DNA of 64,000 nucleotides from Methanobrevibacter millerae (GTDB taxonomy: Archaea > Methanobacteriota > Methanobacteria > Methanobacteriales > Methanobacteriaceae): assembly GCF_900103415.1 (NCBI RefSeq), contig NZ_FMXB01000007.1, forward strand, positions 62,001 to 126,000. Direction: 5' to 3'. The notes below the pieces were generated by a model. It was not told where the DNA came from. It saw only the letters and a list, made by a program, of their open reading frames with translations, and searched no databases. The position numbers and the translations under genes were made by a program. Within the stretch, counting starts at the first letter, position 1. Each line of letters starts with the position of its first letter. Positions 387 to 56,178 of the stretch are shown here, in pieces.

Positions 387-498
387 AGTAGTTTTTCTAT
401 TCTATTTTCATGTTCATATTGTAAAATTAAATTTGGAATATGTGGCATTGTTTTTTCGCCCATTGTGGATAAGTATGTAGAATAATTGGGTTGACAAT

Positions 499-753
499 AT
501 GGTTAATGGAGTAACTTCACAAGAAAGTAAAGATGAATTTGATGCAACTGCAAAAAGTTTCATGGAGCGCATAGAATGGACTGAAGAAAAGTTGGCCAGA
601 GCTAACGCTAAATATTCAGTACGTAAGGATAAGAATTTAGAGCTTAAGACTAAGAATTCAGAGCTTAAGGATAAGAATTTAGAGCTTAAGACTAAGAATG
701 CTGAGCTTAAAGCTGAAGTTGCTAGGTTAACTGCTGCATTAAATGGAAAATAG
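499..753 (+). CDS. Detached coiled-coil tail protein, paralogue of the upstream gene
   Basis: This 84-residue protein begins MVNGVTSQESKDEFDAT and repeats the upstream protein almost exactly from the internal MVNG start to the shared end AEVARLTAALNGK. The middle differs: here the repeat is built of ELKTKNS/ELKDKNL heptads, with a 42-bp unit at 628-669 and 670-711. The frame upstream is closed by TAG at 478, so nothing longer is encoded. The ribosome binding site is weak (GGG about 9 nt before the ATG). It could be a functional small protein that may pair with the larger one, or the 3' remnant of a duplicated gene. The frame and the invariant ends have been kept, which favours function, but I see no direct proof of expression. 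Confidence 0.5.
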   Translation: MVNGVTSQESKDEFDATAKSFMERIEWTEEKLARANAKYSVRKDKNLELKTKNSELKDKNLELKTKNAELKAEVARLTAALNGK

Positions 754-1000
754 AGTATTTTTTGTATTTTATTTTCACTTATTTTTTTAGATTAATGAGA
801 ACACTTTATAATCATGCTTATTAATTATTTGTAAGATAAAATATCATTATTTCAAAAATTAAAGACGTTATCTTAAAAAACCTGCTTAAAAATAATTCTT
901 CTTTACAATAATATTTTTACTTAATCAAATGTGTAATATAACCTTTAAATCAAATAACGAATAAATACAATATTGAGATAAATTTTAAGGATTGTTTTTC

Positions 1001-2386
1001 ATGAATTATTTAATTGTTGGTGCAGGAAATGCCAGTAGGCCCGTTGCAAGATTACTTAATCATTTAGGCCATGATGTCATTGTCACTGATTTAAAGGAAA
1101 TTTCAGAGTTCAAGATAGAATTTCAAAGAAGCTTAATTGAAATGGAAAAAGAGGGCGTTATTCTGGATTTGGGCAATAAAAATCCTGATTTAAACGGAAT
1201 TGAAGCAGTTTATGCTCCTCCAACGTTGCCAGATTCAGCCCCAATAGCCAAATTAATCAAAGACTCTGATGTTAAGATATTAACTAATGAGGAATTCTCC
1301 AAAATCGTAAATGACCTGATTCCCGTTGATATTATCGGAATTACTGGAACGATGGGAAAGACTACAACCACCTTCATTACAACCAGCCTATTCAAGCAGG
1401 CGGGATATAAGGTCTGGTCATGCTCATCACTGGTAAATAATCTTGTTTCCGAAGCCATCATTGATGGGATAGTTAAGGGAAAGGCAGATGACTGTGACAT
1501 AGCTGTTTTTGAACTTCCCCACGGTACAATCGGCCTTTTAAACAGCCTTGATATTAAAATAGGTCTTATAACAAACATCGCTGAAGACCATCTCTCCGAG
1601 TTCGGGGGATCTCTGGAACTGTACCAGAAGAGAAAACTGATTCTTGAAAAGATGTCCGAAACATTCATCGCAAATCACTCATGTTTTGACCTCATTAATC
1701 CTCAAAGAAACGATGCATTATATTATGCTTTAGACGAAGAAGTTGATTTTAAAGGTACCATTGGTGATGAATCCTTAACGATTGAATATAAAGATGGGTC
1801 TTTCACTACTCCCTTCTACATGATGAGCTACTTTTTTGAAAATTCCGTTGCAGCAAGTGCTGTTGCGCTGACATACGGCGTAAAGGAATCAGATATTATC
1901 GACGCTTTGACGGTGTTTAAAGGTCTTCCTGCCCATATGGAGGATGTGGGAGACTACAATGGAAGAAAGGTGATTCTGGACTCAGCATTCCTTTATGATG
2001 GGATGAAAATAACTCTGGATTACTTTAAGGATGAAAGCGTGGTTCTTTTCCTTGATCACTTTGACACATTATCCGTTCGTGACAAGGCCGAAGTCGGCGA
2101 ACTGGTAAGCAATTACGATATAAAGACGGTTATAGCAAGCGGATTCAATGAAGTAACGCAGGAAGTTGAAATGGAAGCCGCCAATGAACTGCTTGATGCA
2201 ATAACAAACCCTAAAATCAACAAGGTGGCGGTGCCCGATATAGAGACCGCTGCGGCTGAAACGTTTAAGTATTCGATTCCGGGCGACATCATCCTGCACA
2301 TGGGGCCTTTAATTGCATATGACAGGCTCACGACAGTTGAAAAAATCATGAAAGGGCTTGATGCGGGAAGTAAGAAGTATGACTGA
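1001..2386 (+). CDS. Mur ligase family protein, probable pseudomurein peptide ligase (pMurC-like)
   Basis: 461 residues. The N-terminal Rossmann-like segment MNYLIVGAGNASRP is followed by a Mur-type P-loop GITGTMGKTTTT (about residue 113) and the central-domain signature EDHLSEFGG...YQKRK, whose lysine region corresponds to the carbamylated lysine of Mur ligases. Mur ligases join an amino acid to a growing cell-wall peptide using ATP. In Methanobacteriales, whose wall is pseudomurein, paired Mur-like genes next to an ATP-grasp protein belong to the pseudomurein cluster, so a cytoplasmic pseudomurein peptide ligase is inferred. ATG 1001 is preferred over TTG 992 because AAGG (987-990) lies 10 nt upstream of it. 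The next ligase overlaps its end by 8 bp, so the two are probably translated together. Which peptide bond it makes cannot be read from the sequence. Confidence 0.85.
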   Translation: MNYLIVGAGNASRPVARLLNHLGHDVIVTDLKEISEFKIEFQRSLIEMEKEGVILDLGNKNPDLNGIEAVYAPPTLPDSAPIAKLIKDSDVKILTNEEFSKIVNDLIPVDIIGITGTMGKTTTTFITTSLFKQAGYKVWSCSSLVNNLVSEAIIDGIVKGKADDCDIAVFELPHGTIGLLNSLDIKIGLITNIAEDHLSEFGGSLELYQKRKLILEKMSETFIANHSCFDLINPQRNDALYYALDEEVDFKGTIGDESLTIEYKDGSFTTPFYMMSYFFENSVAASAVALTYGVKESDIIDALTVFKGLPAHMEDVGDYNGRKVILDSAFLYDGMKITLDYFKDESVVLFLDHFDTLSVRDKAEVGELVSNYDIKTVIASGFNEVTQEVEMEAANELLDAITNPKINKVAVPDIETAAAETFKYSIPGDIILHMGPLIAYDRLTTVEKIMKGLDAGSKKYD

Positions 2387-3881
2387 AAGGTTCGGAGTAA
2401 TCGGAGTTTGCGGCGCAAACGGCAACTTGATTGCAAGAATACTTAAAGAAAGGGGATATGAGGTAATGGGGACTGACTTGTCCTCTGAGGATGAGTGCAG
2501 ATTCGCCCATTCGCTTGACGGCTATGACATTGAGCTTTATTACGGTGAAACCCCGGACGAATTTTTTAAAAAAGCGGATTATGTCGTTCCTCCCGCAAGC
2601 TTATCTAAGGATTCAGCTGTTTTTAAAAAAATCAATAACGTTTATGAATTGGATGACGTCATCAATGATTTCAGGCCCGATAAGCCTGTATTCGGAATAA
2701 CCGGAACCAACGGCAAGACCACATGTACTACCCTTCTTAAAAAGATTGCCTATGACAACGCAATAAGGCCGTGTGAGCACAATCTGGAAAAGATGCAGGG
2801 AAATGCCGAATACATTCCGATACTGCAGTCCCGGTTGAATGGGGATGTGGCGATTCTTGAAGTGGGGACCTTTGGAGTTCCCGGAACCGTTAAAAGGACA
2901 GTAGTCAATTCCTGTATCGAATCAGGGCTTATAACCAACATCACTCCAGACCATATAGGTGATTTGGGAAGCTTCATGGACTATGCGCACGTAAAGGCTG
3001 AATTCATTGAAGGGTTAAAAGGCAAGAAAATAATAGTTAATGGCCAGGATCCGACAATAATTGGGCTTTTAAAGGAACTGGAATTTAACGGCGAGATAAT
3101 AACCTTCGGCGTTGACTGGACATTTGAAAAGGTTAATCCAAAGGAATGCGTCTGCGGAAGTGAAATCAGTGTCAAGGAGATAATTTCAGGTTCAGGATAT
3201 TACTTCTGTAAGAACTGCGGGCTGACAACACCGCAGGTTGACTATATTGCAACAAATGTCGATTTGGCTAATCGCAAATTTGACCTGCACACTCCGAATG
3301 AGAAACTGGAGGTTGAAATGTCAATAGACGGACTTCACAATGTTTATAATGTAACCGGAGTTATAATTGCGGCTCACGAATTCATGAAACTACCTTTTGA
3401 TAAGATTCTGGAGTCAGTTAAAAGCTTCACTGGCGTTGAGGGCAGAATGGAGAAAGTCGCTGAAATCAACGGCAGGGAAATCTATGTTGACTATGCACAT
3501 AACCCTGCAGGCGTTCAGACGGTTTTAGACCAGTTCAAAAAATTGTATGGTGACTTTACGACAGTCATTACCGTATCCTCAGAGTCAGGCTATGACGGTG
3601 ATTTGGCCATTTTTGAAAAGGCCCTTGAATTTTCAAGATATGTTGTTCCGGCTTCTGCGGCTTCCCAGAGGATAGCTCAGGAAAAGCTTTTGGAAGAACC
3701 TTCATTATCTGAAAAGATTATCTTTGACTCCGTCGATGACTTTGTTAAGAATGGGACTTTAGGCGCAAGCTACGATGAGGTTAAGGAAGGATTAACTAAA
3801 GCCTTAAATACTGATTCTAAATTGATTGTAGCTATTGGGGAAGCTGCAACCAAATTCAAGTCATGTGTTGATGCCATATAA
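2379..3881 (+). CDS. Mur ligase family protein with zinc-ribbon insert, probable pseudomurein peptide ligase (pMurE-like)
   Basis: 500 residues, starting MTERFGVIGVCGANG at an ATG that overlaps the preceding stop by 8 bp. A P-loop GITGTNGKTTCT sits near residue 107, the central-domain motif ITPDHIGDLGS near residue 194, and the C-terminal ligase signature YVDYAHNPAGVQTVL about 374-388. Between them, at about residues 257-281, is CVCGSE...FCKNCG, a four-cysteine knuckle of the kind seen in MurT-type Mur ligases. The protein is predicted to add an amino acid to the pseudomurein peptide in the cytoplasm. Context with the preceding ligase and the following ATP-grasp gene supports this. The substrate assignment is inference; the ligase family is certain. 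Confidence 0.85.
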   Translation: MTERFGVIGVCGANGNLIARILKERGYEVMGTDLSSEDECRFAHSLDGYDIELYYGETPDEFFKKADYVVPPASLSKDSAVFKKINNVYELDDVINDFRPDKPVFGITGTNGKTTCTTLLKKIAYDNAIRPCEHNLEKMQGNAEYIPILQSRLNGDVAILEVGTFGVPGTVKRTVVNSCIESGLITNITPDHIGDLGSFMDYAHVKAEFIEGLKGKKIIVNGQDPTIIGLLKELEFNGEIITFGVDWTFEKVNPKECVCGSEISVKEIISGSGYYFCKNCGLTTPQVDYIATNVDLANRKFDLHTPNEKLEVEMSIDGLHNVYNVTGVIIAAHEFMKLPFDKILESVKSFTGVEGRMEKVAEINGREIYVDYAHNPAGVQTVLDQFKKLYGDFTTVITVSSESGYDGDLAIFEKALEFSRYVVPASAASQRIAQEKLLEEPSLSEKIIFDSVDDFVKNGTLGASYDEVKEGLTKALNTDSKLIVAIGEAATKFKSCVDAI

Positions 3882-7201: not shown

Positions 7202-9520
7202 ATGACTACTTATATTAAGCATCCATTGATTAAAGAGAATTCAATCGAATCAAGGCTTTACCAGCAGGTACTGGCCGGGGATGTTTTAAAGAAAGGCAAC
7301 ACGATGGTTGTTGCACCTACCGCTTTAGGTAAAACCATTGTAGCCATTCTGGTAGCGGCCGACCGTCTGCAGAAGGTAAAGAATTCTAAAGTTCTCATTC
7401 TGTCTCCGTCAAAGCCTTTGGCCATTCAGCATGAAGACAGCTTCAAGGAATTTTTAACCCTTCCGTGCGCTTCAATTACAGGTTCTGTCAAGACAGATGA
7501 AAGGGTTAAAAGATGGGAGGAATCCAGAATAATTTCTGCAACCCCTCAGACAGTCGAGTCCGATTTATTGAATGGAAGATATGATTTAAGTAGTGTTTCA
7601 TTAATAGTCTTTGATGAATGCCACCATGGAGTAGGCGCATATTCCTACGTTTATCTGGCTTCAAGATATGTCAAGGAATCCAATTTCAATCTGATTCTGG
7701 GGTTAACTGCATCACCGGGCTCTGACAAGTCCAAAATCAAGGAGGTTTGTGAAAACCTCTACATTCAAAACATTGTTGTCAAAACAGAAAGCGACCCTGA
7801 CGTAAAGCCCTATTTCAATCCGGTTGAAATCGACTGGGTAAGAATCAAGATGAGCTCAGAGCTTGAAAAAATTAATAATTCTCTGGAAAAGGCTCTTAAG
7901 CTCAGGTTGAAAACCCTCAAGAACATGGGCGTTATCAAAACCATATCCGTTACCAAAGTGGATATCCTAAAGGCCCGTGGACGCATTCAGGGCGAAATTG
8001 CGCGAACGACAAATCCAAATAAGGACCTTTTTCACGCTATTTCCATTTTAAGCGCTGTAATTAACATTCAGCATGCCCAGGAGCTTGTTGAAACCCAGGG
8101 AGTTCATCCCTTCAACAAATACATCAAAAGACTGCGCAAGAAAAAGACAAAGGCATCAAAATCACTGATGAACGATCCGAATTTCTCACGTGCTGTCAGA
8201 TTGGCCCATAATGCCGAAAAGAATGGCTGGGAACATCCTAAACTCAGGACTCTAGCCGAAATCCTTAAAAAGGAACTGGGAACGGGTGACGGCCAGACCA
8301 CTCTTCAAACCACTAGATATGGAGATAAAAAGGATAAAAAAGCTTCTAAGATAATCGTTTTTACCCAATTCCGGGACACCCTTGAAATGATTCATGAAAA
8401 GCTTGAAAGCGAAGGAATCAAGGCTGCCAAGTTCTTTGGCCAAGCCACAAAAGACGGTGAAAAGGGTCTGACTCAAAAGCAGCAAAAAGAAATCATAAAA
8501 GCCTTTAGGATGGGTGAATACGATGTTCTGATTTCAACCAGCGTTGCCGAGGAGGGCATTGACATTCCTGCAGTTGATCTTGTCGTTTTATATGAACCTG
8601 TCCCATCTGAAGTGCGCATGATTCAGCGCCGTGGAAGAACCGGACGTAAAAGAACCGGGCGTGTTAAGGTTTTAATTACAAATGGAACCCGTGATGAAGG
8701 TTATTACTGGTCTTCAGTCAGAAAAGAACATAATATGAAAAACCAGTTGATTGATCCGGACGTTTTACGGGAATTGAATGAATCTGCCATTGCACGAATG
8801 GATAATGAAAAGAGAGTTAAAGTCCGTGAAAGGCCTAAGGAGAAAGCCTTGCCTTTAGTTTATGCAGATTCCCGTGAAGGAAATTCAAAGGTAATCCGAT
8901 ATCTCTCACAAATGGAAATGGATGTAAAGATTCAGTCAATGGCCGTAGGAGACTATCAGGTTTCGGATGAGGTTGCCATTGAGAGAAAGACCGCCAAGGA
9001 CTTTGTAGATTCAATGATTGACAAGCGTTTATTCAAGCAGGCCCGTGAGCTTTCACAGGAGTTCAAGCGTCCCTTATTGATTCTTGAAGGGGATGATTTG
9101 TATTCCGGCATGGTCAATCCCAACGCAATCAGGGGAACGATAGCTTCAATAGCTCTTGACTTTGGAATCAGCATTATTCCAACAAGGGATGCCCAGGATA
9201 CCGCTGCAATGATTAAAAGGATTGCGATTCGCGAACAGTCAGGCGAAAAAGTCAATATTCAGATAAGAACAGATAAAAAGCCGGTCAGCCTATGGGAACA
9301 GCAGCTATTCATTATAGAATCCCTGCCCAATATCGGACCGGTAAATGCCAAAAATCTTTTAGAACACTTCGGTTCAGTTTCAAATGTCATCAATGCCTCT
9401 GAAAGCGAACTTATGGAAGTTGAAGGCATAGGTAAAATCACTGCTCAAAACATCAGAAAGGTAATCGATTCCAAATATCTCTATTTCAAAAGGGAAATCA
9501 AGGAAAAAAAGCTTCTCTAA
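7202..9520 (+). CDS. hef: Hef, DEAH helicase fused to ERCC4 nuclease (fork-structure endonuclease)
   Basis: 772 residues. The N-terminal SF2 helicase has a Walker A-like APTALGKT (about residue 39), the DECH box (DECHHG, about 137), TASPGS, and the C-terminal helicase motifs VLISTSVAEEGIDIP and QRRGRTGR. Residues about 560-700 are an ERCC4 nuclease with the catalytic ERKTAKDF (about 594), and the C terminus (LPNIGPVNAKNLLEHFG) is a helix-hairpin-helix pair. Hef processes stalled or branched replication forks in euryarchaea; it is the archaeal relative of FANCM and XPF. Both catalytic centres look intact. It is transcribed alone, divergently from the MFS gene. Confidence 0.95.
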   Translation: MTTYIKHPLIKENSIESRLYQQVLAGDVLKKGNTMVVAPTALGKTIVAILVAADRLQKVKNSKVLILSPSKPLAIQHEDSFKEFLTLPCASITGSVKTDERVKRWEESRIISATPQTVESDLLNGRYDLSSVSLIVFDECHHGVGAYSYVYLASRYVKESNFNLILGLTASPGSDKSKIKEVCENLYIQNIVVKTESDPDVKPYFNPVEIDWVRIKMSSELEKINNSLEKALKLRLKTLKNMGVIKTISVTKVDILKARGRIQGEIARTTNPNKDLFHAISILSAVINIQHAQELVETQGVHPFNKYIKRLRKKKTKASKSLMNDPNFSRAVRLAHNAEKNGWEHPKLRTLAEILKKELGTGDGQTTLQTTRYGDKKDKKASKIIVFTQFRDTLEMIHEKLESEGIKAAKFFGQATKDGEKGLTQKQQKEIIKAFRMGEYDVLISTSVAEEGIDIPAVDLVVLYEPVPSEVRMIQRRGRTGRKRTGRVKVLITNGTRDEGYYWSSVRKEHNMKNQLIDPDVLRELNESAIARMDNEKRVKVRERPKEKALPLVYADSREGNSKVIRYLSQMEMDVKIQSMAVGDYQVSDEVAIERKTAKDFVDSMIDKRLFKQARELSQEFKRPLLILEGDDLYSGMVNPNAIRGTIASIALDFGISIIPTRDAQDTAAMIKRIAIREQSGEKVNIQIRTDKKPVSLWEQQLFIIESLPNIGPVNAKNLLEHFGSVSNVINASESELMEVEGIGKITAQNIRKVIDSKYLYFKREIKEKKLL

Positions 9521-9660
9521 TTTTTTAACTATGCTTGTCCAATTACTCAAGTTTAAGTGAATATTTTTCATTTTTAGTAATCTTTATTAGTTATTTTGTA
9601 CAAAATTATTGGTGTATAGTAAGTTTTAACTATATTATGTTACTAATAGGAGAAATATTT

Positions 9661-12600
9661 ATGAAATATCGATATTTATCCATTTTTTTAATATTGCTGA
9701 TATTGTCAATCGGGGCAGTAAGCGCACAGGACGATGCTGCAGCCGATGATAATGTCGCTGTTGTACAAGATGAGGAGGTATTGTCCGCATTGGAATTTGT
9801 TATCGATGACAGTAATTATGATACTTATTTCGATAATAGCGGATTAATTCTCGAAAACTCTAATATTTCTGACGGTGATACAATCAAACTTGGAAATGTT
9901 AGCGACAAGGACTTTGTAATAGATAAACAATTAACAATCACTTCTAATTCTTCCAGTGATGTTTTAACTAACGTATCATTCTATTTGCTTGACGGAAGTG
10001 ATAATTCAGAAATCTATAATTTGAATATTGTTGGCGACGGTATTGAAAAGACTTCAATCAGTGTTCAATCAGCTGAAAACGTTACAATTCATGATAATGT
10101 AATTGATATTGTGGGTCTTGAAAATTCCTATGATTTTTATGCAATTTACGCATATTACGCTGATAATTTAAACGTTCAGGCTAATGTAATTACATATGAT
10201 GGAAAAAGCGATGGAACTTCAAAAACATTTGCAATTGCCGTTTCACAATCAAGTGATGTAGTTATTAGCGAAAACAAAATTGATGCAAAACTTGTTTCCG
10301 CTCCAATTGATTGGGTTGAAACCCCTCCGGCTTCATATAATTTTGTGCCTCATGCCATTTCTGAGGTAATCAATTTCAATGATTGTGAAGGATTGGAATT
10401 GTCATATAATGGGATTGATGTGGAATATTCCAACTACACTGGTGATTATGACAGCATTTATACGGTTGAATTATATGAATGTGATGATGCAGTGATTGAA
10501 GGTAATTTTATTCTCGGATCTGGTCACTCATACATTTATGGTTTAGTAATCAGGGGACAGGATTTCACAGTTTCCAATAATGGTATTAATATGATTTCTG
10601 ATGAAAATTATGCAAATGGAATAGACATTGCATCCGATTCTACCGGTATTGTAGAGAATAATGGGATTTTTGTTTCATCTCCATTTGTTGTTTATGGAAT
10701 TTATGGTGAAATGGGTGCTGAAGATTCACCAACAGTAGATTATCTTAATAATTATGTTGAAGCCGATTCCCATGTGGTATACGCCATGTATATTTATGGA
10801 AATGAAGGAACAATTGAAGGAAATGAAATAATGGCCACCGGTAATTACACTGCAGGTATAGTTTCAATGATGATTGATGATGTTGCAGTAATCAAAAACA
10901 ATGAAATTACCGTAAAAGGTTTGAAAAACGATACAGTAAAAACTGAGGACAGCGTTCCTGCACAGACCGTAGGTATTATAGCAATGCATGAATGTGAAAT
11001 TACAAACAATGTAGTCACTTCAGCAGGTAACTACACAATTGTCCACACTGGTTATGACAGTGAAATAACCGGCAACTACCTTGTTTCAAGCGAATTGATG
11101 GGTGATGACAGTGTTGATGACAGATCCGAAGATGCTATCGTTGAAAACAACATTCCTGTTGAAGATGCTGATAATTATAACGTAACCAATGACACTTTCT
11201 TCCTGTTCTTTACTGAACGCGGAGTATTGAGGGACGGCATCAATCCTGAAACGTTAACATTCATCGGAGAATTCTCTGAAAAAACATCATGGAATGAAAT
11301 TGACAGACCAATCACTTTAATAGGCGATAACGCTACCTTGAATGATATGAGTTTTGTAATCAGTTCCGACGGCGTTGTCATTGACGGATTCAATTTCATT
11401 GCTGACGGAATATATGAAATTATCACAGTTAATGGTGCTGATGACGTTTCAGTTATTAACTCTAACTTCACGGTTGCCGGTGCAGATGATGACAATAATT
11501 ATGTTGTCCGCATATCCAATTCATCAAATGTTTTAATCGCCAATAATACGATTGATTACTCTGTTATAACTACTTATAATCCTTATACTAACCATGTTAT
11601 TTGCGCTGAAGGCAGTGATCATTTACTCATTCTTTCTAACGAAATAACCGCCTTTATGCCTTCACGCCCTATGGACTGGGCTACAGGTACAGTTTATTCC
11701 GAAGCCGTACACATAAATGACTGCGAAGATGTAACATTCTACGGAAACGTTATTGATGTCACATCAAATAATCAAATCGGATCTTACGCTACCTTGTATG
11801 TGGTAGAAATACGCGCTAGTGATGTGGAAGTTGCTGAAAATAACATTACTCTGGTAAATGCTCAATACGGATACGCTCTTGTCATGTCCGGTGAAGATTT
11901 GAATATTGAAGCTAATGATATTTATGTTATCGATCTTCAGCCTTATGCATGCGGTATTAACATTGAAAGTAACTCAGAAGCTGAAATTACAGGCAATTTT
12001 ATTGTTATGTCCGGAGACTCAGCTTATGGTATCTACACTGCTGATTGGGCTGGTGATGTAGTGGCTAGTATTGAAGACAATGCGATTTTAATTGAGGGTA
12101 ACACCATATTTGGAATGTCCTTAAGCGGTAGTGAAGCTACAGTCGAAGACAACATAATTATTGCCATAGGTAATTACACCACAGGTATAGCTTCAGCTGT
12201 CGATCAAATTGATATTTTGGACAATAAAATTAATGTTAAGGGATCAAACGTAGGTATTCCTTTAGGATATGACTCAATGGGCATTGAAACCACTGGTATT
12301 CATATTGCAAGAGGAAATGCTACCGTATCTCACAATATTGTCACTACAACAGGTGATTATGCGGTTCATGCCGAAGGCAATGGATCTGTAACATATAATA
12401 ACTTGGTTGCAAGTGAATTGGTGGGTGATGACAGTGTCAATGCAACTGACATGACTCTTGTTGAAAACAATATCCCGATAGCCAATGCAACAAACTATAA
12501 TTTAACCAATGATACCTTCTACATATTCTTTGATAAATTCGGCTATTTATATGATGATATAACTCCGGAATCATTAACATTCATTGGAGAATTCTCTAAT

Positions 12601-15600
12601 CTGGTAGATGTAATCCAAATTGACAGGCCAATTTATTTATTAAGCGATAACGCTACTTTAAATAACATGATTGTTTATATTATCTCTGATAATGTTAGTG
12701 TTGACGGATTCACTTTTATTGGAGCCAATTCTGGAATCTATATTCACGGGGCAGACAACGTTAACATTTCAAACAGCGAATTTGACATTGATGGTTATGA
12801 TGATTCGCAAAATCGCGTCATTTTAATTGAAGGGTCTAACAATGTTTCAATCGAGAATAACACAATCCTTTTCAATGTTGAAACTAGTGGCACTTATCAA
12901 AATATTGTTGTTGATGCCATGGATTCCGATGGGTTAACACTTGCAAACAATAACATTTCTGCTAACATGCCTGCCCGTTCCATCGATTGGGGAACAGGTA
13001 CTGTTTATTCAGATGCAGTGCGCTTATATGATTGTGATGATGCACTTATCGATGATAATTTAATTAGTGTTAAATCCAACGGTTACATCAGCACTTATGA
13101 TACAATTTATGCCTTAAATATCAATGGAGACAATGCTATTGTCCGTAAAAACACAATATCTGTTCGTGATGCTCCATACGGATATGCTGTTGTCATATCT
13201 GGTGAAGACTTCCTTATCGAGGACAATTTTATTGTTGCCGTTGGAAATCTATCCTATGCATGTGGTATTGAAGTCGACGGTGTATCAAATGGAGTAATCA
13301 ATGATAACGCAATTATTACCATAGCTGATTCTTCTTACGGAATCTATACTGCAAATTGGAATGGTGACGTAAAAGCAAACATTACTAACAATGACATGTA
13401 CTCAATAGGCAATTCCGTATTCGCCCTATCCTTAAGCGGCAGTAAAATTTTAGTTGAAGGCAATGATATTCTAGCATCTGGTGTCTTTACCACAGCTATC
13501 GCTTCAAAAGTCGATGAAATAACTATTAACAACAATAAAATAGCCTCTTCCGGATCAAATAATGGAACTCCTTTAGGCTACGATTCCTTCGGTATTTATT
13601 CAAGAGCTATCTATATTGATGCAGGTAATGCTACAATTACTTCAAACGACATTAATGCAACTGTTAGTGGTATTTATGCATTAGGTGACAATACCTTAAT
13701 CTGCAACAACACAATTAATGTTGAAGACACTGGTGTTTCTCAAAATAACGGTTTGGATGGTTCTTGCGCTTTATATATAGGTTCTGATTCTGAAATATGT
13801 GATAATGTAATTACATATGCCGGTAAAACAAACGGAACTTATCAAAATGCAATAATTTATGCAATTTATTCAGAAATTAAAGTTCATGACAATGTAATTA
13901 ACGGCAGTTTAGTGTCCTGTCCTGTTGATTGGAAAACTAAGGGAATGGATTATTATCCTGTTCTCACATCACAAGGTCTTTTCTTCTCAGGATGTGACGG
14001 CCTTGAATTAATTGACAATGAAATAAAAGTGGAATATAATAATGCTACTGCTTTAGTTGACACTATTTATGTTGTAAATGTTTTTGATTGTGATGATGCA
14101 TTAATTGAAAACAATATCCTAAACGGACTTGGTCACTCATACATTTACGGTGTAGTACTCAGGGGAGAAAACTTCACTGTTGCCGATAACGTCATTGACA
14201 TGGCTTCCGATGAAAACTATGCTAACGGCATAGATATTGCATCCAATTCTACAGGTATTGTAGAGAATAATAAGATTTTTGTTTCATCTCCATTTGTTGT
14301 TTATGGAATCTATTCCGAATGGAATTGGGCTGGTGACTCACCAACTGTAGATTATACCAACAATTATATTGAAGCCGATTCCCATGCTGTATATGCAATG
14401 AACATTTATGGATCTGAAGGAACAATTGACTCAAACGTGATTGTTGCAAACGGTAATTACACAGCAGGTATTGTTTCAATGATGATGGATGATGTTGCAG
14501 TAATTACAAACAATGAAATTACCGTAAACGGTTTGAAAAACGACAGTGAAGATGTTCGAGACATGGTTCCTGCACAAACCGCGGGTATTTTAACCATGTC
14601 TGAAAGCCAAATCCATAACAATGTAATCACTTCAACCGGTATCTACTCCATAATCAATTCAGCTTCTGACAGTGAAATAACCTATAACTACCTTGTTTCA
14701 AGCGAATTGCTAGGTGATGACAGTGTCGAAGATACTATGGACGAATCATTAGTTGAAAACAACATTCCTAATACTGAAAATGAATATAATTTAACCAATG
14801 ACACTTTCTTCCTGTTCTTCAATGAAGACGGTTATTTAAGGGATAATATAACCGGTGATTTAACATTCATTGGTGAATTCTCCGATTTATTAGAAGAAAT
14901 TATTATTGTCAGACCGGTTAACTTATTAAGTGACAATGCTACTTTACGCAACATGAGTATCATTATTGGAATTGAAAATGTCACTGTTGACGGATTCACT
15001 TTCACTGATGAGTATGGCGGAATAGCCACTTTTGCAGATAATGCTACAATCGTCAACAATGAATTCTACGTAAACGGCTTTGATGATAAGGAAAATGTTG
15101 CCATTGAAATTTATGAATCTGATGATGTTTCAATCCTCAACAACAGAATCTATTTCAATGTTGAAACCAATGGCACTTTTAAAAACCGTGCTATTGATGC
15201 TAAAAATTCAAACGGTTTGATTATTTCCAACAACTTTATCGATGCTTATATGCCTTCCCGTTCAGTTGACTGGGCTACTGGAACAGTATATTCAACAGGT
15301 GTATTATTGAATGGATGTGACGATGCAGTTTTACAAAACAACACAGTCATTGTCAATTCCAATGATAAAATCGATGTTTATGACACTATTTATGCAGTAT
15401 CTGTTTCCGGTGATAATGTAAATATCATTGACAACAATATTAGTGTTGAAGGCGCTCCATACGGATATGCTCTTGTCATCACTGGTAAAGACTTCGTCAT
15501 CGACAATAATGAATTTAGTGCTGGTCGAAACGAATCATACGCATGTGGTATTGATGTTGAAAGTAACTCAAACGGTATCATTGAAAACAATTTAATCCGT

Positions 15601-18450
15601 GTTGAAGGAGATTCAATATACGGCATCTACACCGCTAACTGGGCAGGTGACGTAAAAGCAAACATTACAAACAACACAATCTTGGCAACAGGTATTACAG
15701 CATTCGCAATGTCTCTAAGCGGTAGCGAAGCAACAGTTGATAATAACAAAATTTATATGTATGGTAACTTCACAACAGGTATCGCCTCAAAATTCGACAT
15801 GATATTCATTACAAACAACACAGTCTTTGCTCTTGGATCAGATAAAGGCACTCCTGCAGGATATGACTCAATGGGTCCCGAAACTATTGGTGTTCATATT
15901 GTAAGTGGTGATGCATTGGTTAAATATAATCATCTTGAAGTCAACAGCACATACGCAGTCGATATGGACGCAACCGGTGCCGTAACAGACAATATACTGC
16001 TCACTCCATTTTTAAAAGGAGACTTTGCAGTTGACTACAAACAGGGCTCAGGTGTTCTCGTTGCAAACAACACTCCTGCAATGGAATTAGACTACACATT
16101 AACAAACGATACATTCTACGTCTACTTCGATAAAGAAGGAAAAATCAGAGAACAAATCCAAGCGGACAACTTAACATTCATCGGAGAATTCTCAGATTTA
16201 GTGGATGTAATTACCATTGACAGACCAATCGCTTTATTAAGCGATAACGCTACATTAAAAGACATTACAATTGATATCACAGCTGACAACGTAAGTGTTG
16301 ACGGATTCACATTCGAATCAGATATTCTATTCAATGTAATTGCAATCGATAAAGCAGATGATGTCACTATATCAAACAGCGAATTCTACGTAACTGGATG
16401 TGCTGATGGAAATAATGTCGTAATCGCCGTCGACAATTCCGAAAATGCATTAATCATTAACAACAAAATCTATTTCGATGCAGATATCAATGGAACTTAC
16501 TCAAATTCAGTAATTTACGCTTTTGAATCAGATAATCTAGCTATTTCATCAAATGAAATATATGCTACCTTACCTGCACGTTCCATTAACTGGACCACAG
16601 GACAAGTATATTCAACAGGTGTCGAAATAGACGGCTGTGACAACGCTGTTCTGCATAACAACATAATCGGCATCAGGTCCACTGATAAAATCTCTAATTA
16701 CGATACCATTTACGCAGTATCCGTTAAAGGTGACAACGCATCAGTAATCACCAACGAAATCGCTGTCTTTGAAGCTCCATACGGATACGCTATTGTACTT
16801 TCCGGTGAAGACTTCATAATCGATGGAAACGAACTCACTGCCGGTTATAACGAAGCCTATGCATGTGGTATAGAAGTTGACGGCAAATCAAGCGGTATAA
16901 TCAATGACAATGAAATTCTTGTTAAAGGCGACTCCGTTTATGGTATCTACACCGCTAACTGGGCTGGTGACGTAAAAGCAAACATTACAAACAACAACAT
17001 TGAAACCGACGGTATCACTTCATTCGGTATGTCATTAAGCGCAAGCGAAGCATTGGTTGAAAACAACACAATCTCTTCAAACGGTAACTTCACAACCGGA
17101 ATCGCTTCAAAAGTTGCTAATATTACTATCAACAACAACACAATCACTGACAACGCATCAGATGAAGGAACTCCTGCAGGTTACGACTCAATGGGCATTG
17201 AAACTACCGGTATCCACATTGTAAGCGGAAACGCAACCGTAACCAACAACGACGTTAAAACCAACGGTGAATTTGCAGTTGACGCCAAAGGAACAGGCTC
17301 CGTAACCGACAACACATTGTTTGCAAAAGAATACACCGGTGACGCTGCCGTGGATTACGACCCTGCAGACACTATAGTTTCAAACAACACTCCTGCAATG
17401 ACAAGAGCTGTCATTCATGCTCAAGACATTGTAATGTATTACAAGAACGGTACCAGGTACGTTGTCATATTGACAGACCAGAACGGCAAGCCATTGGCTA
17501 ACATGAATCTTACCTTAGTAATCAACGGCGCTTCATACACAAGAACCACTGATGAAAACGGTACTGCTTCAATAGCCCTTAACCTGAACAGTGGAAACTA
17601 CACGGCTTCTGCTTCATTCATCGGCGTAGATCCATACTCTGACGCAAGCGTTGAAAACAACGTTACAATCATCTCAACAGTTTTCGGTGAGGATGTTGTT
17701 AAAGTCTTCAGAAACGCAACTCAATACTACGCCACTTTCCTTGACGCTCAAGGAAACCCATTGGCAGAGGGCACTGAAGTAACATTCAACATCAACGGTG
17801 TAATGTACAAACGTTACGTTAACGGTACTGAAGGAAAAGCCAAATTGAACATCAACTTGCCTCAAGGCGAATACATCATTACTGCAATCAATCCTGTAAA
17901 CGGCGAAATGGCAGCAAATAACATTACTGTTCTTGCTTCAATCACTGACAATAAGGATTTAGTGAAATACTACAAAAACGATTCACAATATGTTGTAACT
18001 ATCATAGGTGATGACGGTAACCCTGTTGGCGCTGGCGTAAATGTAACATTCAACATTAACGGTGTATTCTACACTCGCCAAACCAATGAATCAGGTCAAG
18101 CTAAACTTAACATTAACTTGCAGCCTGGCGACTACATCATTACTGCCGAATACAACGAATGCAGAGTGTCAAACAACATTACAGTAAAACCGATCTTATT
18201 CGCTCAGGATCTGGTTAAAAAATACGGTACTTCCGATCAGTTCAGGGCATTGCTGCTTGACGGTCAAGGTAATCCATATCCTGGTCAAAACGTAACCTTC
18301 AATATTCACGGTGTCTTCTATGAAAGAACTACCAATAGCGACGGTTATGCTGCTCTTAACATTAAATTAGGAGCTGCTGTTGATGAGTATATTATTACTT
18401 CAAGCTTCAATGGTACCAGTATTTCAAACAAAATTATAATTGAACCTTAA
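9661..18450 (+). CDS. Giant adhesin-like protein: beta-helix (A-B-B)x2 plus four Ig-like repeats
   Basis: 2929 residues. ATG 9661 follows AGGAG (9648-9652) and begins a clear signal peptide (MKYRYLSIFLILLILS...VSAQ), so the protein is secreted. Residues about 60-2580 are parallel beta-helix repeats rich in N-N-x-I turns (NosD/PbH1 type). These fall into large modules: A (about 144-500 and 1360-1704; marker HSYIYG...FTV) and B (about 504-940, 944-1354, 1707-2140, 2142-2580; markers TNDTF at the start, LTFIGEFS, YDSMG near the end). Residues about 2582-2929 hold four Ig-like repeats with core FNINGVFYxR and LNINL, shared with the other two adhesin-like proteins here. No transmembrane or sortase anchor is seen at the C terminus. 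Such proteins are typical Methanobrevibacter surface proteins thought to mediate attachment. Confidence 0.9.
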   Translation: MKYRYLSIFLILLILSIGAVSAQDDAAADDNVAVVQDEEVLSALEFVIDDSNYDTYFDNSGLILENSNISDGDTIKLGNVSDKDFVIDKQLTITSNSSSDVLTNVSFYLLDGSDNSEIYNLNIVGDGIEKTSISVQSAENVTIHDNVIDIVGLENSYDFYAIYAYYADNLNVQANVITYDGKSDGTSKTFAIAVSQSSDVVISENKIDAKLVSAPIDWVETPPASYNFVPHAISEVINFNDCEGLELSYNGIDVEYSNYTGDYDSIYTVELYECDDAVIEGNFILGSGHSYIYGLVIRGQDFTVSNNGINMISDENYANGIDIASDSTGIVENNGIFVSSPFVVYGIYGEMGAEDSPTVDYLNNYVEADSHVVYAMYIYGNEGTIEGNEIMATGNYTAGIVSMMIDDVAVIKNNEITVKGLKNDTVKTEDSVPAQTVGIIAMHECEITNNVVTSAGNYTIVHTGYDSEITGNYLVSSELMGDDSVDDRSEDAIVENNIPVEDADNYNVTNDTFFLFFTERGVLRDGINPETLTFIGEFSEKTSWNEIDRPITLIGDNATLNDMSFVISSDGVVIDGFNFIADGIYEIITVNGADDVSVINSNFTVAGADDDNNYVVRISNSSNVLIANNTIDYSVITTYNPYTNHVICAEGSDHLLILSNEITAFMPSRPMDWATGTVYSEAVHINDCEDVTFYGNVIDVTSNNQIGSYATLYVVEIRASDVEVAENNITLVNAQYGYALVMSGEDLNIEANDIYVIDLQPYACGINIESNSEAEITGNFIVMSGDSAYGIYTADWAGDVVASIEDNAILIEGNTIFGMSLSGSEATVEDNIIIAIGNYTTGIASAVDQIDILDNKINVKGSNVGIPLGYDSMGIETTGIHIARGNATVSHNIVTTTGDYAVHAEGNGSVTYNNLVASELVGDDSVNATDMTLVENNIPIANATNYNLTNDTFYIFFDKFGYLYDDITPESLTFIGEFSNLVDVIQIDRPIYLLSDNATLNNMIVYIISDNVSVDGFTFIGANSGIYIHGADNVNISNSEFDIDGYDDSQNRVILIEGSNNVSIENNTILFNVETSGTYQNIVVDAMDSDGLTLANNNISANMPARSIDWGTGTVYSDAVRLYDCDDALIDDNLISVKSNGYISTYDTIYALNINGDNAIVRKNTISVRDAPYGYAVVISGEDFLIEDNFIVAVGNLSYACGIEVDGVSNGVINDNAIITIADSSYGIYTANWNGDVKANITNNDMYSIGNSVFALSLSGSKILVEGNDILASGVFTTAIASKVDEITINNNKIASSGSNNGTPLGYDSFGIYSRAIYIDAGNATITSNDINATVSGIYALGDNTLICNNTINVEDTGVSQNNGLDGSCALYIGSDSEICDNVITYAGKTNGTYQNAIIYAIYSEIKVHDNVINGSLVSCPVDWKTKGMDYYPVLTSQGLFFSGCDGLELIDNEIKVEYNNATALVDTIYVVNVFDCDDALIENNILNGLGHSYIYGVVLRGENFTVADNVIDMASDENYANGIDIASNSTGIVENNKIFVSSPFVVYGIYSEWNWAGDSPTVDYTNNYIEADSHAVYAMNIYGSEGTIDSNVIVANGNYTAGIVSMMMDDVAVITNNEITVNGLKNDSEDVRDMVPAQTAGILTMSESQIHNNVITSTGIYSIINSASDSEITYNYLVSSELLGDDSVEDTMDESLVENNIPNTENEYNLTNDTFFLFFNEDGYLRDNITGDLTFIGEFSDLLEEIIIVRPVNLLSDNATLRNMSIIIGIENVTVDGFTFTDEYGGIATFADNATIVNNEFYVNGFDDKENVAIEIYESDDVSILNNRIYFNVETNGTFKNRAIDAKNSNGLIISNNFIDAYMPSRSVDWATGTVYSTGVLLNGCDDAVLQNNTVIVNSNDKIDVYDTIYAVSVSGDNVNIIDNNISVEGAPYGYALVITGKDFVIDNNEFSAGRNESYACGIDVESNSNGIIENNLIRVEGDSIYGIYTANWAGDVKANITNNTILATGITAFAMSLSGSEATVDNNKIYMYGNFTTGIASKFDMIFITNNTVFALGSDKGTPAGYDSMGPETIGVHIVSGDALVKYNHLEVNSTYAVDMDATGAVTDNILLTPFLKGDFAVDYKQGSGVLVANNTPAMELDYTLTNDTFYVYFDKEGKIREQIQADNLTFIGEFSDLVDVITIDRPIALLSDNATLKDITIDITADNVSVDGFTFESDILFNVIAIDKADDVTISNSEFYVTGCADGNNVVIAVDNSENALIINNKIYFDADINGTYSNSVIYAFESDNLAISSNEIYATLPARSINWTTGQVYSTGVEIDGCDNAVLHNNIIGIRSTDKISNYDTIYAVSVKGDNASVITNEIAVFEAPYGYAIVLSGEDFIIDGNELTAGYNEAYACGIEVDGKSSGIINDNEILVKGDSVYGIYTANWAGDVKANITNNNIETDGITSFGMSLSASEALVENNTISSNGNFTTGIASKVANITINNNTITDNASDEGTPAGYDSMGIETTGIHIVSGNATVTNNDVKTNGEFAVDAKGTGSVTDNTLFAKEYTGDAAVDYDPADTIVSNNTPAMTRAVIHAQDIVMYYKNGTRYVVILTDQNGKPLANMNLTLVINGASYTRTTDENGTASIALNLNSGNYTASASFIGVDPYSDASVENNVTIISTVFGEDVVKVFRNATQYYATFLDAQGNPLAEGTEVTFNINGVMYKRYVNGTEGKAKLNINLPQGEYIITAINPVNGEMAANNITVLASITDNKDLVKYYKNDSQYVVTIIGDDGNPVGAGVNVTFNINGVFYTRQTNESGQAKLNINLQPGDYIITAEYNECRVSNNITVKPILFAQDLVKKYGTSDQFRALLLDGQGNPYPGQNVTFNIHGVFYERTTNSDGYAALNIKLGAAVDEYIITSSFNGTSISNKIIIEP

Positions 18451-18492: not shown

Positions 18493-19239
18493 TCAGAAAT
18501 TGCTTTTAAGAAATTCCAAACTTTTTTTAATGGAATCCTTATTATTTACTTCTATCATGTAGATGCCATCATATTTTTTATCTTCAAAAATATCAATGAT
18601 GCGTTTTAATTCAATACTGCCTTCACCTAATGGCAAGTGTGAGTCATCATCACCAAAATTATCATGCGCATGTATGTGTTTAATACAGTCAAAATACATT
18701 TCATCTGGAGATATTCCTGAGTGGTTGGCATGGCCGATATCCAAAGTCATTGACATTTCGAATTTCAAAAGAGTTTCGTTTAATCTGGACATGTCCTGAT
18801 AAATCATGCTTTCGAATGCAGGCATGTTCTCGATGGTGGTGTTTACCCCCAAATCCTTGCTGTATTTTCCTATTTCTTCAATGGATGCGTCGGCTACCTT
18901 GTAGATTTCTTCAGGCATTTCCTTTGCAAGAAACGGAATGAGTCCCGGATGGACAACGACGGTGCTTGCATCGATTTCATTTGCCAAATCAACTGAAGAT
19001 TTAATCTGTGAAATGGAGCAGGCCCTGCTTTTGGAGCCTAAAGCTGCAATATTGACGTCCATAAATGGAGCGTGAATGGTGTATTTCAAATCATAGCTGT
19101 TTAAAATGTCCAGGTCAAACTCCTCTGTAGGATACTGATGTAACAATTCGGCATATTTGATGCCCAAACCTTCTATAAATTCCAAACTGCTGTCTAAACT
19201 ATTGTTAAAAGTTGCTAATGTTGATGCTCCTATTTTCAT
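18493..19239 (-). CDS. Sugar phosphate isomerase/epimerase-like TIM-barrel protein
   Basis: 248 residues. The sequence fits the xylose-isomerase-like/AP-endonuclease-2 barrel: IHAPFMDVN, TVVVHPGL, TTIENMPA, LDIGHANHSG and HAHDNFGDDDSHLPLGEG are spaced as metal-ligand strands of this fold. Members are sugar isomerases or epimerases or endonuclease IV-like enzymes; the substrate cannot be chosen here. ATG 19239 is preferred because GTGAT (19248-19244) serves as its ribosome binding site; a GTG at 19248 would overlap the stop of the upstream PINA gene by 4 bp. It is the last gene of the hisS-hisI-PINA run. Confidence 0.75.
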   Translation of the reverse strand: MKIGASTLATFNNSLDSSLEFIEGLGIKYAELLHQYPTEEFDLDILNSYDLKYTIHAPFMDVNIAALGSKSRACSISQIKSSVDLANEIDASTVVVHPGLIPFLAKEMPEEIYKVADASIEEIGKYSKDLGVNTTIENMPAFESMIYQDMSRLNETLLKFEMSMTLDIGHANHSGISPDEMYFDCIKHIHAHDNFGDDDSHLPLGEGSIELKRIIDIFEDKKYDGIYMIEVNNKDSIKKSLEFLKSNF

Positions 19240-19244
19240 TTTAA

Positions 19245-21083
19245 TCACTTTCTAACTGCTGTTATCTTAAGTCCCATTTCGATGGCGTCCAGTATCTCAT
19301 CTGACAGTTCAATGCCGTTTTTAATCTTTATTTCGCCTTTCTTGGACGTTGTTGCTGTAAGCAGGTATTCGCCGTCAATCAAAACGTCAAAGTTGGCCCT
19401 TCCGTTTTCACGGCCCAAATCCAGAATCAGCTGCTTTCTGGTGTGTATAATGTCGAATTCAAAGGCCTCATTATTGGAATAATTCTTTTCAATGACTTCC
19501 ACGCCTAGGGATATTCCAATCTTCTCTTCGATTTCGGCTATTCTCTTGCCGTTCTTGCCGATTATTTGGGGAACCAGCTCGTCGGGAATGTAGATGTTTG
19601 CCCTATCCGGCGATACGATTTCAACTTCCACATCGGCCTTTTTGGGCAGGAACCTCTTGATTCGCCTTAAAATCTCTTTTTCGGCAATGCTGTCAACGGA
19701 TGATTTCTCATTTTGGCTTGATGGGTTATTGACTAAATCCAAATCCATCACGATTGTCTGCTCTCCGTATGTGTAGATTTCGTTTTTAAGCTCTCCTGTT
19801 TCAAAGTCACGAACTTCAATGACCGGTCTTGCAAGGTCGGCCTCCTTCATTCCGCTTGGAACCTTGACGGTCATTTTTGTTTCATAAACGCTTTTGATTT
19901 CACCGTCTTCAATGTAAATGCTTGTATCGACAATTGAAGGGATTACTCCAAGCTCAACTCTTGAAGCGATTCTCTGAATGGCGTCTATCGGCCTGGTTGC
20001 GTGAACAACGCCTATCATTCCGACTCCGGCCAGGCGCATGTCCGCAAAGATGTTGAAGTCATGGTTCTTTCTCAGTTCGTCATAAATGGTGTAATCCGGT
20101 CTGACAAGAAGCAGTACGTCAGCAGTATTTTCCATGCTGCCTTCAAGGGGAGCGTACTGGGTTATTTCATCCGGAAGCTGCAGGTCTCTCGGTGATTCCA
20201 TTGTCTTGACGATTTTGTTAAGCTCGCCGGAATAGTATTTGGCAATCGCCTGGACAAATGTTGATTTTCCCGCTCCCGGAGAACCTGAAATCAGGATTCC
20301 TTCAGCGTTATTGTTAATTCTGTCCATTAATTTGGCACTTAAGTGATATTCATCCAAGTCAATGTCTGCCACAGGCCTTACAGCCGTTATTTCAATGGCT
20401 TCTGAAAATGGCGGCGTAGCTATTGAAATCCTGTATTCCCTTGACTGGACAACGACGGATCCTTCCTTTTCGGATTCCATATAGGTTTTCGCGTCGCTTC
20501 TTGACTTTTCTATAATTTCATCGATGATTTCCTGGAGCTTCGTATGATTAAATACTTCGTCGGATAACTTGACGAAACTGATATGGCCAGGTGTTCCCTT
20601 TTTGGCCATTGGACAAACGTTTTCCTTCAGATGCACAGACATCGTTTCATCATCGAAAAATTTGGCAATGGATAATTCCTTTTCAACATATTTCTGTTCA
20701 TAATAATAAACGGGAATTCCCTGAGCCTTTGCAGTTTCTGCCTGGACCTTGTCGTTTGTAAGCAGGGTTCCAAATTCTGACCTTGCCAAATCCCTGATTA
20801 ATGCATCGATTTCTCCGCTTTTGGCATATCGGATATCATAATTTGTCGGCCTTTTTCCTTTGAATGACACTGCAAGCTCTCCTTCATACTGCAGTTTCTG
20901 CAGGTGTTTTAGTTCATTAAGGCCGTTAATGCCTTCGCGTCTGTTGGCGTTTGCCTGATGTTCGAGTTCACAGACAACCGCTTCGGGAACGATGATTTCG
21001 GGATAGTCAAGATTCTCCTTTTCAATGACTTTGCTTACTGCTCCAATAATTACTGCACTGGTATCTGGAATTATTGTTTTCAT
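19245..21083 (-). CDS. PINA-type ATPase: PIN domain, PilT/VirB11-like ATPase and KH domain
   Basis: 612 residues. The N terminus (IPDTSAVIIGAV...ALIRDLA...LLTNDKVQAE) is a PIN domain with its acidic residues. The centre is a secretion-ATPase-like motor with Walker A GSPGAGKST (about 270) and the aspartate-box region FADMRLAGVG. Near residue 500 is a KH-type RNA/DNA-binding loop IIGKNGKRI. This architecture is COG1855; the Sulfolobus member PINA forms hexamers, promotes Holliday junction branch migration and works with Hjc. A role in recombination or fork repair is therefore likely here. It follows hisI with one base between stop and start, so it is co-translated with histidine genes, although no functional link is known. 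Confidence 0.85.
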   Translation of the reverse strand: MKTIIPDTSAVIIGAVSKVIEKENLDYPEIIVPEAVVCELEHQANANRREGINGLNELKHLQKLQYEGELAVSFKGKRPTNYDIRYAKSGEIDALIRDLARSEFGTLLTNDKVQAETAKAQGIPVYYYEQKYVEKELSIAKFFDDETMSVHLKENVCPMAKKGTPGHISFVKLSDEVFNHTKLQEIIDEIIEKSRSDAKTYMESEKEGSVVVQSREYRISIATPPFSEAIEITAVRPVADIDLDEYHLSAKLMDRINNNAEGILISGSPGAGKSTFVQAIAKYYSGELNKIVKTMESPRDLQLPDEITQYAPLEGSMENTADVLLLVRPDYTIYDELRKNHDFNIFADMRLAGVGMIGVVHATRPIDAIQRIASRVELGVIPSIVDTSIYIEDGEIKSVYETKMTVKVPSGMKEADLARPVIEVRDFETGELKNEIYTYGEQTIVMDLDLVNNPSSQNEKSSVDSIAEKEILRRIKRFLPKKADVEVEIVSPDRANIYIPDELVPQIIGKNGKRIAEIEEKIGISLGVEVIEKNYSNNEAFEFDIIHTRKQLILDLGRENGRANFDVLIDGEYLLTATTSKKGEIKIKNGIELSDEILDAIEMGLKITAVRK

Positions 21084-25780: not shown

Positions 25781-26060
25781 TAAAAGTTTCTTATCTCTAG
25801 TTTAAAGGATTGTTTTTTGCAGATATTCTGTGTTGAATTTTGAAAAGTATTACTAATGTAAAATTAGTCATTAAAAAGATTTTAATTTACTCTCCATTTA
25901 ATATATAAAGTATTATATTCGAATATTTTTGGACAAGATATTCAAAACACTATTATTTTTATAATTTAATGAATTTCATGTTTTTCAGATAACTTTTTTA
26001 TAGTATAATTAATAGATAGAAAAATAGTGTTATAATAATAAGTATTAACAGGTGAAAATT

Positions 26061-26564
26061 ATGAATAAAAAAATAATTATAGCAATATTGGTCATTATTA
26101 TAATTGCGGCAGGTGCCTTCTTTATGTTTGGCCAATCATTTTTAAAAGCTGATACGCAGATTAATCTTTTAAATAAGGACACCATACAAAATGGTGAGCA
26201 GTTGGAATTTGAACTAAAAGATGCTAACGGCAATCCTGTTGCAGGTCAAGTTCTAAACATTACTTTCAACGATAAAAATTATTCAGTAGCTACTGACGAT
26301 AATGGTAAAGCTTATCTGTTTATCACTGGTATTGACGTTGGAAAATATAATGTTTCAGTCAATTATGGTGGAAATAACAAATTTAATGGTTGTACTGCTA
26401 CATTTAACATAGAAGTTACAAATGATGCTCCAGACAACCCTGCTACACGAACTATCAGTAATTCAGTTGTAAGCACTCAAAATAATCAAACTAGTGGTAA
26501 CAACACTGGTAACAGCACGGGTAACAGTAGCGGAAGCGGCCTTAATACAATTTCTGGCAATTAG
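26061..26564 (+). CDS. Membrane-anchored small Ig-domain protein with Asn/Ser/Gly-rich tail
   Basis: 167 residues. ATG 26061 is chosen because GGTGA (26051-26055) lies at the right spacing; the in-frame GTG at 26052 is part of that site. A single N-terminal hydrophobic segment (IIIAILVIIIIAAGAFFMFG) anchors or exports the protein. Residues about 30-115 form one Ig-like module with the pattern QLEFELKDANGNPVAGQ, ITFNDKNY and DDNGKAYL, seen repeatedly in the adhesin-like proteins of this window. The last 40 residues are a low-complexity N/T/S/G linker. It may be a surface or wall-spanning protein; its role is unknown. Confidence 0.75.
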   Translation: MNKKIIIAILVIIIIAAGAFFMFGQSFLKADTQINLLNKDTIQNGEQLEFELKDANGNPVAGQVLNITFNDKNYSVATDDNGKAYLFITGIDVGKYNVSVNYGGNNKFNGCTATFNIEVTNDAPDNPATRTISNSVVSTQNNQTSGNNTGNSTGNSSGSGLNTISGN

Positions 26565-47078: not shown

Positions 47079-47192
47079 AGTATCAACCTTTTCGTTAATT
47101 TTTTCAAACAAATTAACACTGAAACTATGATTTTAAAGTTATAAACTTTTTAATTAAAAATTCAAATAGAAAAACTTTATAAAAATGTATTT

Positions 47193-56086: not shown

Positions 56087-56164
56087 TTTATCACCTTGCC
56101 TAATCCTCATATAAAATATTTTTATTCTAAAAGTTTCAACGCCGTTATTTAGTATAATATTAGG

Positions 56165-56178
56165 CATAATATATTATG
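56165..56178 (-). promoter_or_regulatory. Palindromic operator of the XRE/ImmA/PIN operon
   Basis: CATAATATATTATG is a perfect 14-bp palindrome. On the coding (minus) strand the TATA box TTTATATAAT (56196-56187) lies just before it and transcription should start near 56163, so a bound regulator would block initiation. A half-site GTCATAATAAA occurs again around 56205-56214. Confidence 0.55.

Follow-up and report, generated by a model that had tools for sequence, protein, structure and literature searches.

The window, a 64,000-nucleotide stretch of DNA from the gut methanogen Methanobrevibacter millerae, contains a gene for a very large adhesin-like surface protein (ALP). The protein is built of six right-handed beta-helix (RBH) units that are homologous to one another and run A1-B1-B2-A2-B3-B4, with four Ig-like (archaeal Big) domains after them. 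Comparison of these units with one another, with a paralogue and with the same locus in congeneric genomes suggests that the protein is probably an ordinary member of the ALP family, carrying a mosaic array at a locus with changing unit number and sequence exchange, rather than the product of one clean A-B-B duplication. Directly visible in the sequences compared are the units, the synteny, the differences in unit number between species, a second gene that carries the tail cassette, and a near-identical tract.

The open reading frame is real (Table 1): its ATG at 9661 is preceded by a good ribosome-binding site, AGGAGA at 9648-9653, and its stop codon lies at 18448-18450. Hydrophobicity peaks in the N-terminal segment MKYRYLSIFLILLILSIGAVSAQ (KD 2.1; the maximum past residue 60 is 1.35, and the C-terminus holds no such segment), which is predicted on this basis as either a signal peptide or a membrane anchor, of the kind found in ALP subgroup IA. 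The RBH units are strongly acidic, with 78 Asp and Glu versus 14 Lys and Arg in A1. The last 346 residues match Pfam Big_1 and Invasin_D3, and this tail matches 98 places in its own genome (G000), 46 of which span at least 330 of the 346 residues by hand count. At several ALP places in C16 and C17 of G000 the match to the tail runs to residue ~263 and is followed by TAA at the same point, which marks them as a run of shorter-tailed paralogues. A whole-protein scan of a collection of genome contigs found no relative.

Table 1. Features of the adhesin gene, its flanks and a low-GC stretch of the window
Feature	Position (nt)	Residues	Strand	Basis or remark
Left flank, Hef-like helicase/nuclease, syntenic anchor	7202-9520		+	DEAD, Helicase_C, ERCC4, HHH
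Adhesin-like protein gene	9661-18450	2929 aa	+	No internal stop; Pfam Beta_helix PF13229 E 1e-34, six stretches
N-terminal hydrophobic segment	9661-9729		+	Read as Sec signal peptide or membrane anchor
Unit A1, capped RBH domain	9799-11172	47-504	+	Unit HMM positions 8-439, match aa 53-503
Conversion-like tract in A1, into first codons of B1	10627-11210 (statistical core 10627-10932)		+	Permutation test, dS, exact repeat
Unit B1	11173-12492	505-944	+	Unit HMM positions 1-439, match aa 506-943; model seed
Unit B2, N-cap and core only	12493-13662	945-1334	+	Unit HMM positions 1-391, match aa 946-1334; without C-cap
Joint between B2 core and A2 core	13663-13809	1335-1383	+	Homology to A-A joints of congeners
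Unit A2, core and C-cap	13810-14781	1384-1707	+	Unit HMM positions 88-438, match aa 1342-1706; without N-cap
Partner tract in A2 and start of B3	14236-14819		+	Permutation test, dS, exact repeat
Unit B3	14782-16092	1708-2144	+	Unit HMM positions 1-439, match aa 1709-2143; model seed; separate domain in predicted structure
Unit B4	16093-17409	2145-2583	+	Unit HMM positions 1-439, match aa 2145-2582; model seed; separate domain in predicted structure
Candidate recent conversion tract in B4	17017-17303		+	286/287 nt identical to paralogue G000:C3
C-terminal tail, four Ig-like (Big_1-like / archaeal Big) domains	17410-18447	2584-2929	+	Pfam Big_1 E 9e-21 in 3 stretches
Right flank, AP-endonuclease-2-like TIM barrel, syntenic anchor	18493-19248		-	PF01261 E 3e-31
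ORF without family match	54540-55079		-	In low-GC stretch
IrrE/M78 peptidase ORF, weakly spr1629 antitoxin-like	55033-55779		-	In low-GC stretch
HTH repressor-like ORF	55754-56167		-	In low-GC stretch

The first-pass annotation had described markers recurring at a constant offset of about 3.6 kb and the order A-B-B-A-B-B followed by four Ig-like units, and both descriptions hold. HSYIYG occurs at 10525 and 14134 (offset 3609 nt), TNDTF at 11185, 12505, 14794 and 16102 (3609 nt from B1 to B3, 3597 nt from B2 to B4) and TFIGEFS at 11257, 12577, 14863 and 16174 (3606 and 3597 nt, respectively), giving offsets of 3597-3609 nt; a unit HMM seeded with B1, B3 and B4 recovers six units in the protein, and Big_1 matches lie in the tail. 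Since the 3.6-kb offset is the sum of the unit lengths, it dates no duplication by itself. The similarity of the units is far above chance (A1/A2, 61% over 325 aa, E 4e-131; B3/B4, 57%, E 5e-160), and chance similarity was rejected on these values. The A and B types are themselves homologous (A1/B1, 32.5%, E 8e-44), and the array thus consists of six copies of one unit type.

Analysis of the caps revealed that B2 lacks a C-cap and A2 lacks an N-cap, indicating that B2-A2 forms one fused double-core domain instead of two capped modules. The joint (residues 1290-1420) matches the A1-A2 joint of the G050 orthologue with 42% identity over 114 aa (E 6e-18, 70 bits), versus at most 48 bits for matches within its own gene, and A-A joints homologous to it also exist in G052, G014 and G009; double-core matches are present in further congeners. 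AlphaFold2 modelled B2-A2 (six rows) as a single rod with pTM 0.84 and mean pLDDT 82.5, in which most of the blocks that span the joint exceed 70 and residues 1-52 and 738-763 are poor, while B3-B4 (five rows) gave two good domains with pTM 0.53 and a linker pLDDT of 42-49. Because these two domains have no fixed orientation, Foldseek TM-scores with the B3-B4 model (by query length) reached at most 0.24. The natural domains, as judged from sequence and predicted models, appear to be A1, B1, a continuous double-length beta-helix B2-A2, B3 and B4.

The proposal that A-B-B was duplicated once in tandem, B having been duplicated earlier, is not borne out by comparison of the block mates. The BLASTP amino acid identities of the mates are 61% for A1/A2, 47.5% for B1/B3 and 54.2% for B2/B4, and those of the non-mates are 47.7% for B1/B2, 48.3% for B1/B4, 53.5% for B2/B3 and 57.4% for B3/B4. 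The prediction that all three mate pairs would exceed B1/B2 is thus right for A1/A2 and B2/B4 and fails for B1/B3, and B3/B4 and B2/B3 match or exceed the B mates, so the mates are neither equally similar nor set above the non-mates as after a recent block duplication. The dS values (NG86 with bootstrap 95% intervals; values above 1 are near saturation) are 0.73 (0.58-0.99) for A1/A2, 1.62 (1.22-2.79) for B1/B3, 1.70 (1.24-4.11) for B2/B4, 1.58 (1.14-2.8) for B1/B2 and 1.34 (1.0-2.02) for B3/B4. Exact repeats of at least 16 nt among the B units (four each in B2/B4, B2/B3 and B3/B4, two each in B1/B3 and B1/B4, none in B1/B2) show no preference for block mates. Some block signal is present nevertheless and counts against the mosaic reading: 16 exact repeats of at least 16 nt lie at ~3.6 kb, 10 of them in A1/A2 (one being A1/joint) and six in B mates. 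In the AU tests excluding both C3 paralogue rows, p was 0.035 for B1+B3, 0.41 for B2+B4, 0.066 for both pairs jointly, 0.69 for B1+B2 and 0.47 for B1+B2 with B3+B4; with the paralogue rows, B1+B3+C3B1 (0.125) and B2+B4+C3B2 (0.11) were not rejected. In the whole-A-unit tree A1 and A2 are sisters with the A unit of G049 outside (100/99), and in half-unit trees their sisterhood has support of 99/95 in the 3' half (with the third A units of G009 and G052 next) and 84/85 in the 5' half, which fits a real A duplication and also counts against the mosaic reading.

The closeness of A1 and A2 appears confined to a 3' tract, and their 5' half looks as old as the B pairs. Along A1, the A1/A2 dS is 1.49 at residues 140-241, 1.24 at 242-322, 0.38 at 323-424 and 0.50 at 425-504. 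A polymorphic-site permutation test (2000 permutations, 15 pairs tested, two partial B rows left out) identified a core at residues 323-424, where 171 of 217 polymorphic sites match A2 versus a fraction of 0.466 elsewhere (p 0.0005, the lowest value that the test can give), and a 28-nt exact repeat lies within the tract at 11183-11210. Third positions alone gave p 0.034, which, with 15 pairs tested, fails correction and lends weak support. This last value would suit a reading without intragenic conversion, in which the centre of A1/A2 is simply more constrained; that is unlikely, as the segment is not conserved across species, A1 and A2 sharing 81% identity here versus 44% between A1 and the A unit of G049 (dS 0.38 vs 0.82).

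A paralogue in the same genome (G000:C3:84626-92827, 2733 aa) joins an unrelated-looking front of 1500 aa to B-B and the four Ig-like domains, and this latter part is 77% identical to B3-B4-tail over 1108 residues. Orthologues of C3, recognized by the front part, are found in G014, G009 and, cut off, G072; the two intact ones carry at that place one unit, with 46-50% identity to A types and 34-37% to the B units of G000. Since they lack the B-B tail, the C3 gene probably gained its B-B-Ig4 cassette from a gene like the adhesin described here. The dS between the adhesin and C3 is 0.40 for the B4 pair and 0.76 for the B3 pair, indicating older sharing. The near-identical B4 tract consists of two perfectly matching stretches, 179 and 107 nt long, with one mismatch between them (permutation p 0.0005; third positions 104/106), while many 30-codon windows in its flanks are 71-82% identical, rising to 90-97% beside the tract. 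Such identity amid diverged flanks suggests a recent conversion between B4 and C3.

To place the gene among its relatives, the locus between the hef-like and the AP-endonuclease-like genes was compared in 17 genomes besides its own (18 loci), most of them MAGs according to their records and chosen from 67 of the genus with one genome per species; a hef-like gene is present in 64 of the 67. A related ALP lies at the hef and/or AP-endonuclease-like gene in 9 of the 17, being whole in six and cut by contig ends in G063, G052 and G072. Each whole orthologue ends in a Big-like tail, preceded by A-B-B in G049 (1718 aa), A-A-A-B-B in G050 (2363 aa), an atypical first unit and B-B in G020 (1806 aa), A-A-A-B in G009 (1954 aa), A-A in G014 (1174 aa) and A-A in G013 (1384 aa; the contig covers the AP side only). 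These syntenic orthologues therefore hold 2-5 units in 1174-2363 aa, versus six units here, and five of them are 53-79% identical to this adhesin in the first 100 aa and 69-77% in the tail. In the other eight, more distant genomes (G077, G019, G024, G048, G002, G001, G045 and G010; hef identity at most 85%) no ALP is present, and hef and the AP gene are adjacent. As exact repeats inside the genes are at most 36 nt long, short-read collapse is an unlikely cause of the differences in unit number. The expectation that recombination changes the length of the surface protein is supported by unit numbers from 2 to 6 across syntenic orthologues and by the conversion-like tracts. In G014 a giant ORF of more than 3770 aa lies next to hef, and the A-A-Ig4 orthologue sits ~20 kb off beside the AP gene; the hef-AP interval contains ~20 kb of additional DNA as well (L034 3692-15001, L044 2075-5602). 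The neighbouring hef failed as a clock: its dS ran from 1.7 to infinity, showing saturation, and G000 drew a warning on base composition. It also gave no firm branching order for G000, G014 and G049, the last being referred to as the sister species here. ALP units compared across species have a dS of ~1.0-1.4, below the hef values of 1.7 and up, which points to interspecies exchange or to a composition shift in G000.

In the reading that we favour, the six RBH cores would form five rods (the double-length B2-A2 being one of them) between an exported N-terminus and a four-domain tail common to dozens of paralogues. Recombination in register with the beta-helix coils would add and remove units, partial gene conversion would homogenise segments, both inside the gene (3' half of A1 and A2) and from gene to gene (B4 and the paralogue C3), and the order A-B-B-A-B-B would be how this mosaic array stands today. 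A single, lineage-specific tandem duplication of A-B-B after an older B duplication is already disfavoured and seems very unlikely: the order and offsets fit it, A1 and A2 are sisters in the tree and G049 has exactly the expected precursor A-B-B-Ig4, but the dS of the B mates is about twice that of A1/A2 with non-overlapping intervals, B1/B3 is no closer than B1/B2, and B3 and B4 are closer or equal to B1 and B2 of G049 (59 and 59%) versus their supposed mates (47 and 55%).

Placing the same duplication earlier, ahead of the divergence from the sister species or close to it, with recent A1/A2 conversion and block loss elsewhere, gives a possible, though less probable, account. The dS values of the 5' part of A, B1/B3 and B2/B4 (all 1.2-1.7) are compatible with one age, a topology with both block pairs enforced stands at the 5% level of the AU test, and in the first 60 columns B2/B4 is 70% identical, the top of the six B pairs there; however, B1/B2 and B3/B4 are equally old, B1+B3 falls below 5% in the AU test, and the B2-A2 joint is nearer to foreign A-A joints than to its own A1 start. 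That A-A character of the joint would be explained if a B-B cassette had entered an older A-A array and replaced internal A cores, A2 then being orthologous by position to the final A of G009 and G052. In keeping with this, the 3' part of A2 (A1 residues 425-504) is 71% identical to the third A unit of G052 and 65% to that of G009, versus 56% to A1, and a similar cassette did enter the C3 gene. We consider this course doubtful, because the 5' half of A2 groups, weakly, with A1, the A unit of G049 and the first A unit of G013, and because a search of 67 congeneric genomes found no closer source of B1 (best ~53%) or B2 (56%, with 57% in one non-best row).

By its domain content the protein appears to be a Group-IA-type methanogen ALP. 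Like members of subgroup IA as described by Gupta and Seedorf 2024 (PMC11532034), it has an N-terminal hydrophobic segment, several RBH domains (seen in the PF13229 matches, the AlphaFold2 models and structural matches), a run of Big-like repeats after them (judged by Pfam Big_1 instead of that paper's ABD set), an Asn-rich composition and a large genomic ALP set. An ALP of 4691 aa with seven RBH repeats and 18 ABDs is reported in the same source; its abstract and Results treat neither homologous RBH units in capped and fused form nor the conversion between loci and the turnover of units at a locus that are described here. A conserved C-terminal domain with Big_1-like homology, M1-C, common to many ALPs (44 there), is likewise reported for M. 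ruminantium M1 (PMC2812497); the likeness to it is one of description, and the tail here comprises four domains. The structural matches include Vag8 (Z 32.6, rmsd 2.8, 389 aligned), AlgE6 (31.8, 2.7, 313) and PfbA (30.8, 3.1, 320), and the fold is shared with bacterial RBH adhesins and polysaccharide enzymes (Vag8 passenger, PfbA, AlgE epimerases, phage tailspikes) at 9-17% identity; a fold held in common indicates no function.

ALPs are described as surface proteins whose RBH and Big-like repeats extend outward and bind (PMC11532034, PMC2812497). Expression of M. ruminantium ALPs is reported to rise in co-culture with a hydrogen-producing bacterium (PMC2812497), and Mru_1499 of this species is reported in a review as an adhesin for protozoa (PMC10658910). 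By analogy, the RBH units may present putative binding surfaces for partner cells or glycans, the tail may act as an anchor or stalk that keeps the protein on or within the pseudomurein wall, and unit turnover may tune reach and specificity. In two methanogens of the human gut, ALPs account for about a tenth of the genome (PMC11532034), and they have been considered as targets for methane mitigation (PMC2812497). If recombination does turn over units at fixed loci, attachment specificity and ALP-based targets could differ among close relatives, and the hef-AP-endonuclease interval is one locus where this turnover is measurable. The wider proposal that Methanobrevibacter ALPs form a diversification system, in which one common tail, interchangeable RBH cassettes and ongoing conversion between genes and units reshape partner-binding rods within a species, with an effect comparable to bacterial pilin or surface-antigen variation, is speculative and improbable at present.

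Elsewhere in the window, further Ig-like (Big_1/Big_3_5) surface-type ORFs lie at 44076-47111 (-), 29379-31217 (-) and 26052-26564 (+). A low-GC stretch at 54540-56167 (-), with 27% GC in 54001-56000, looks like a mobile or toxin-antitoxin-type module. At 47904-50009 (-), a 4-TM holin-superfamily-IV-like segment is fused to a type I phosphodiesterase domain.
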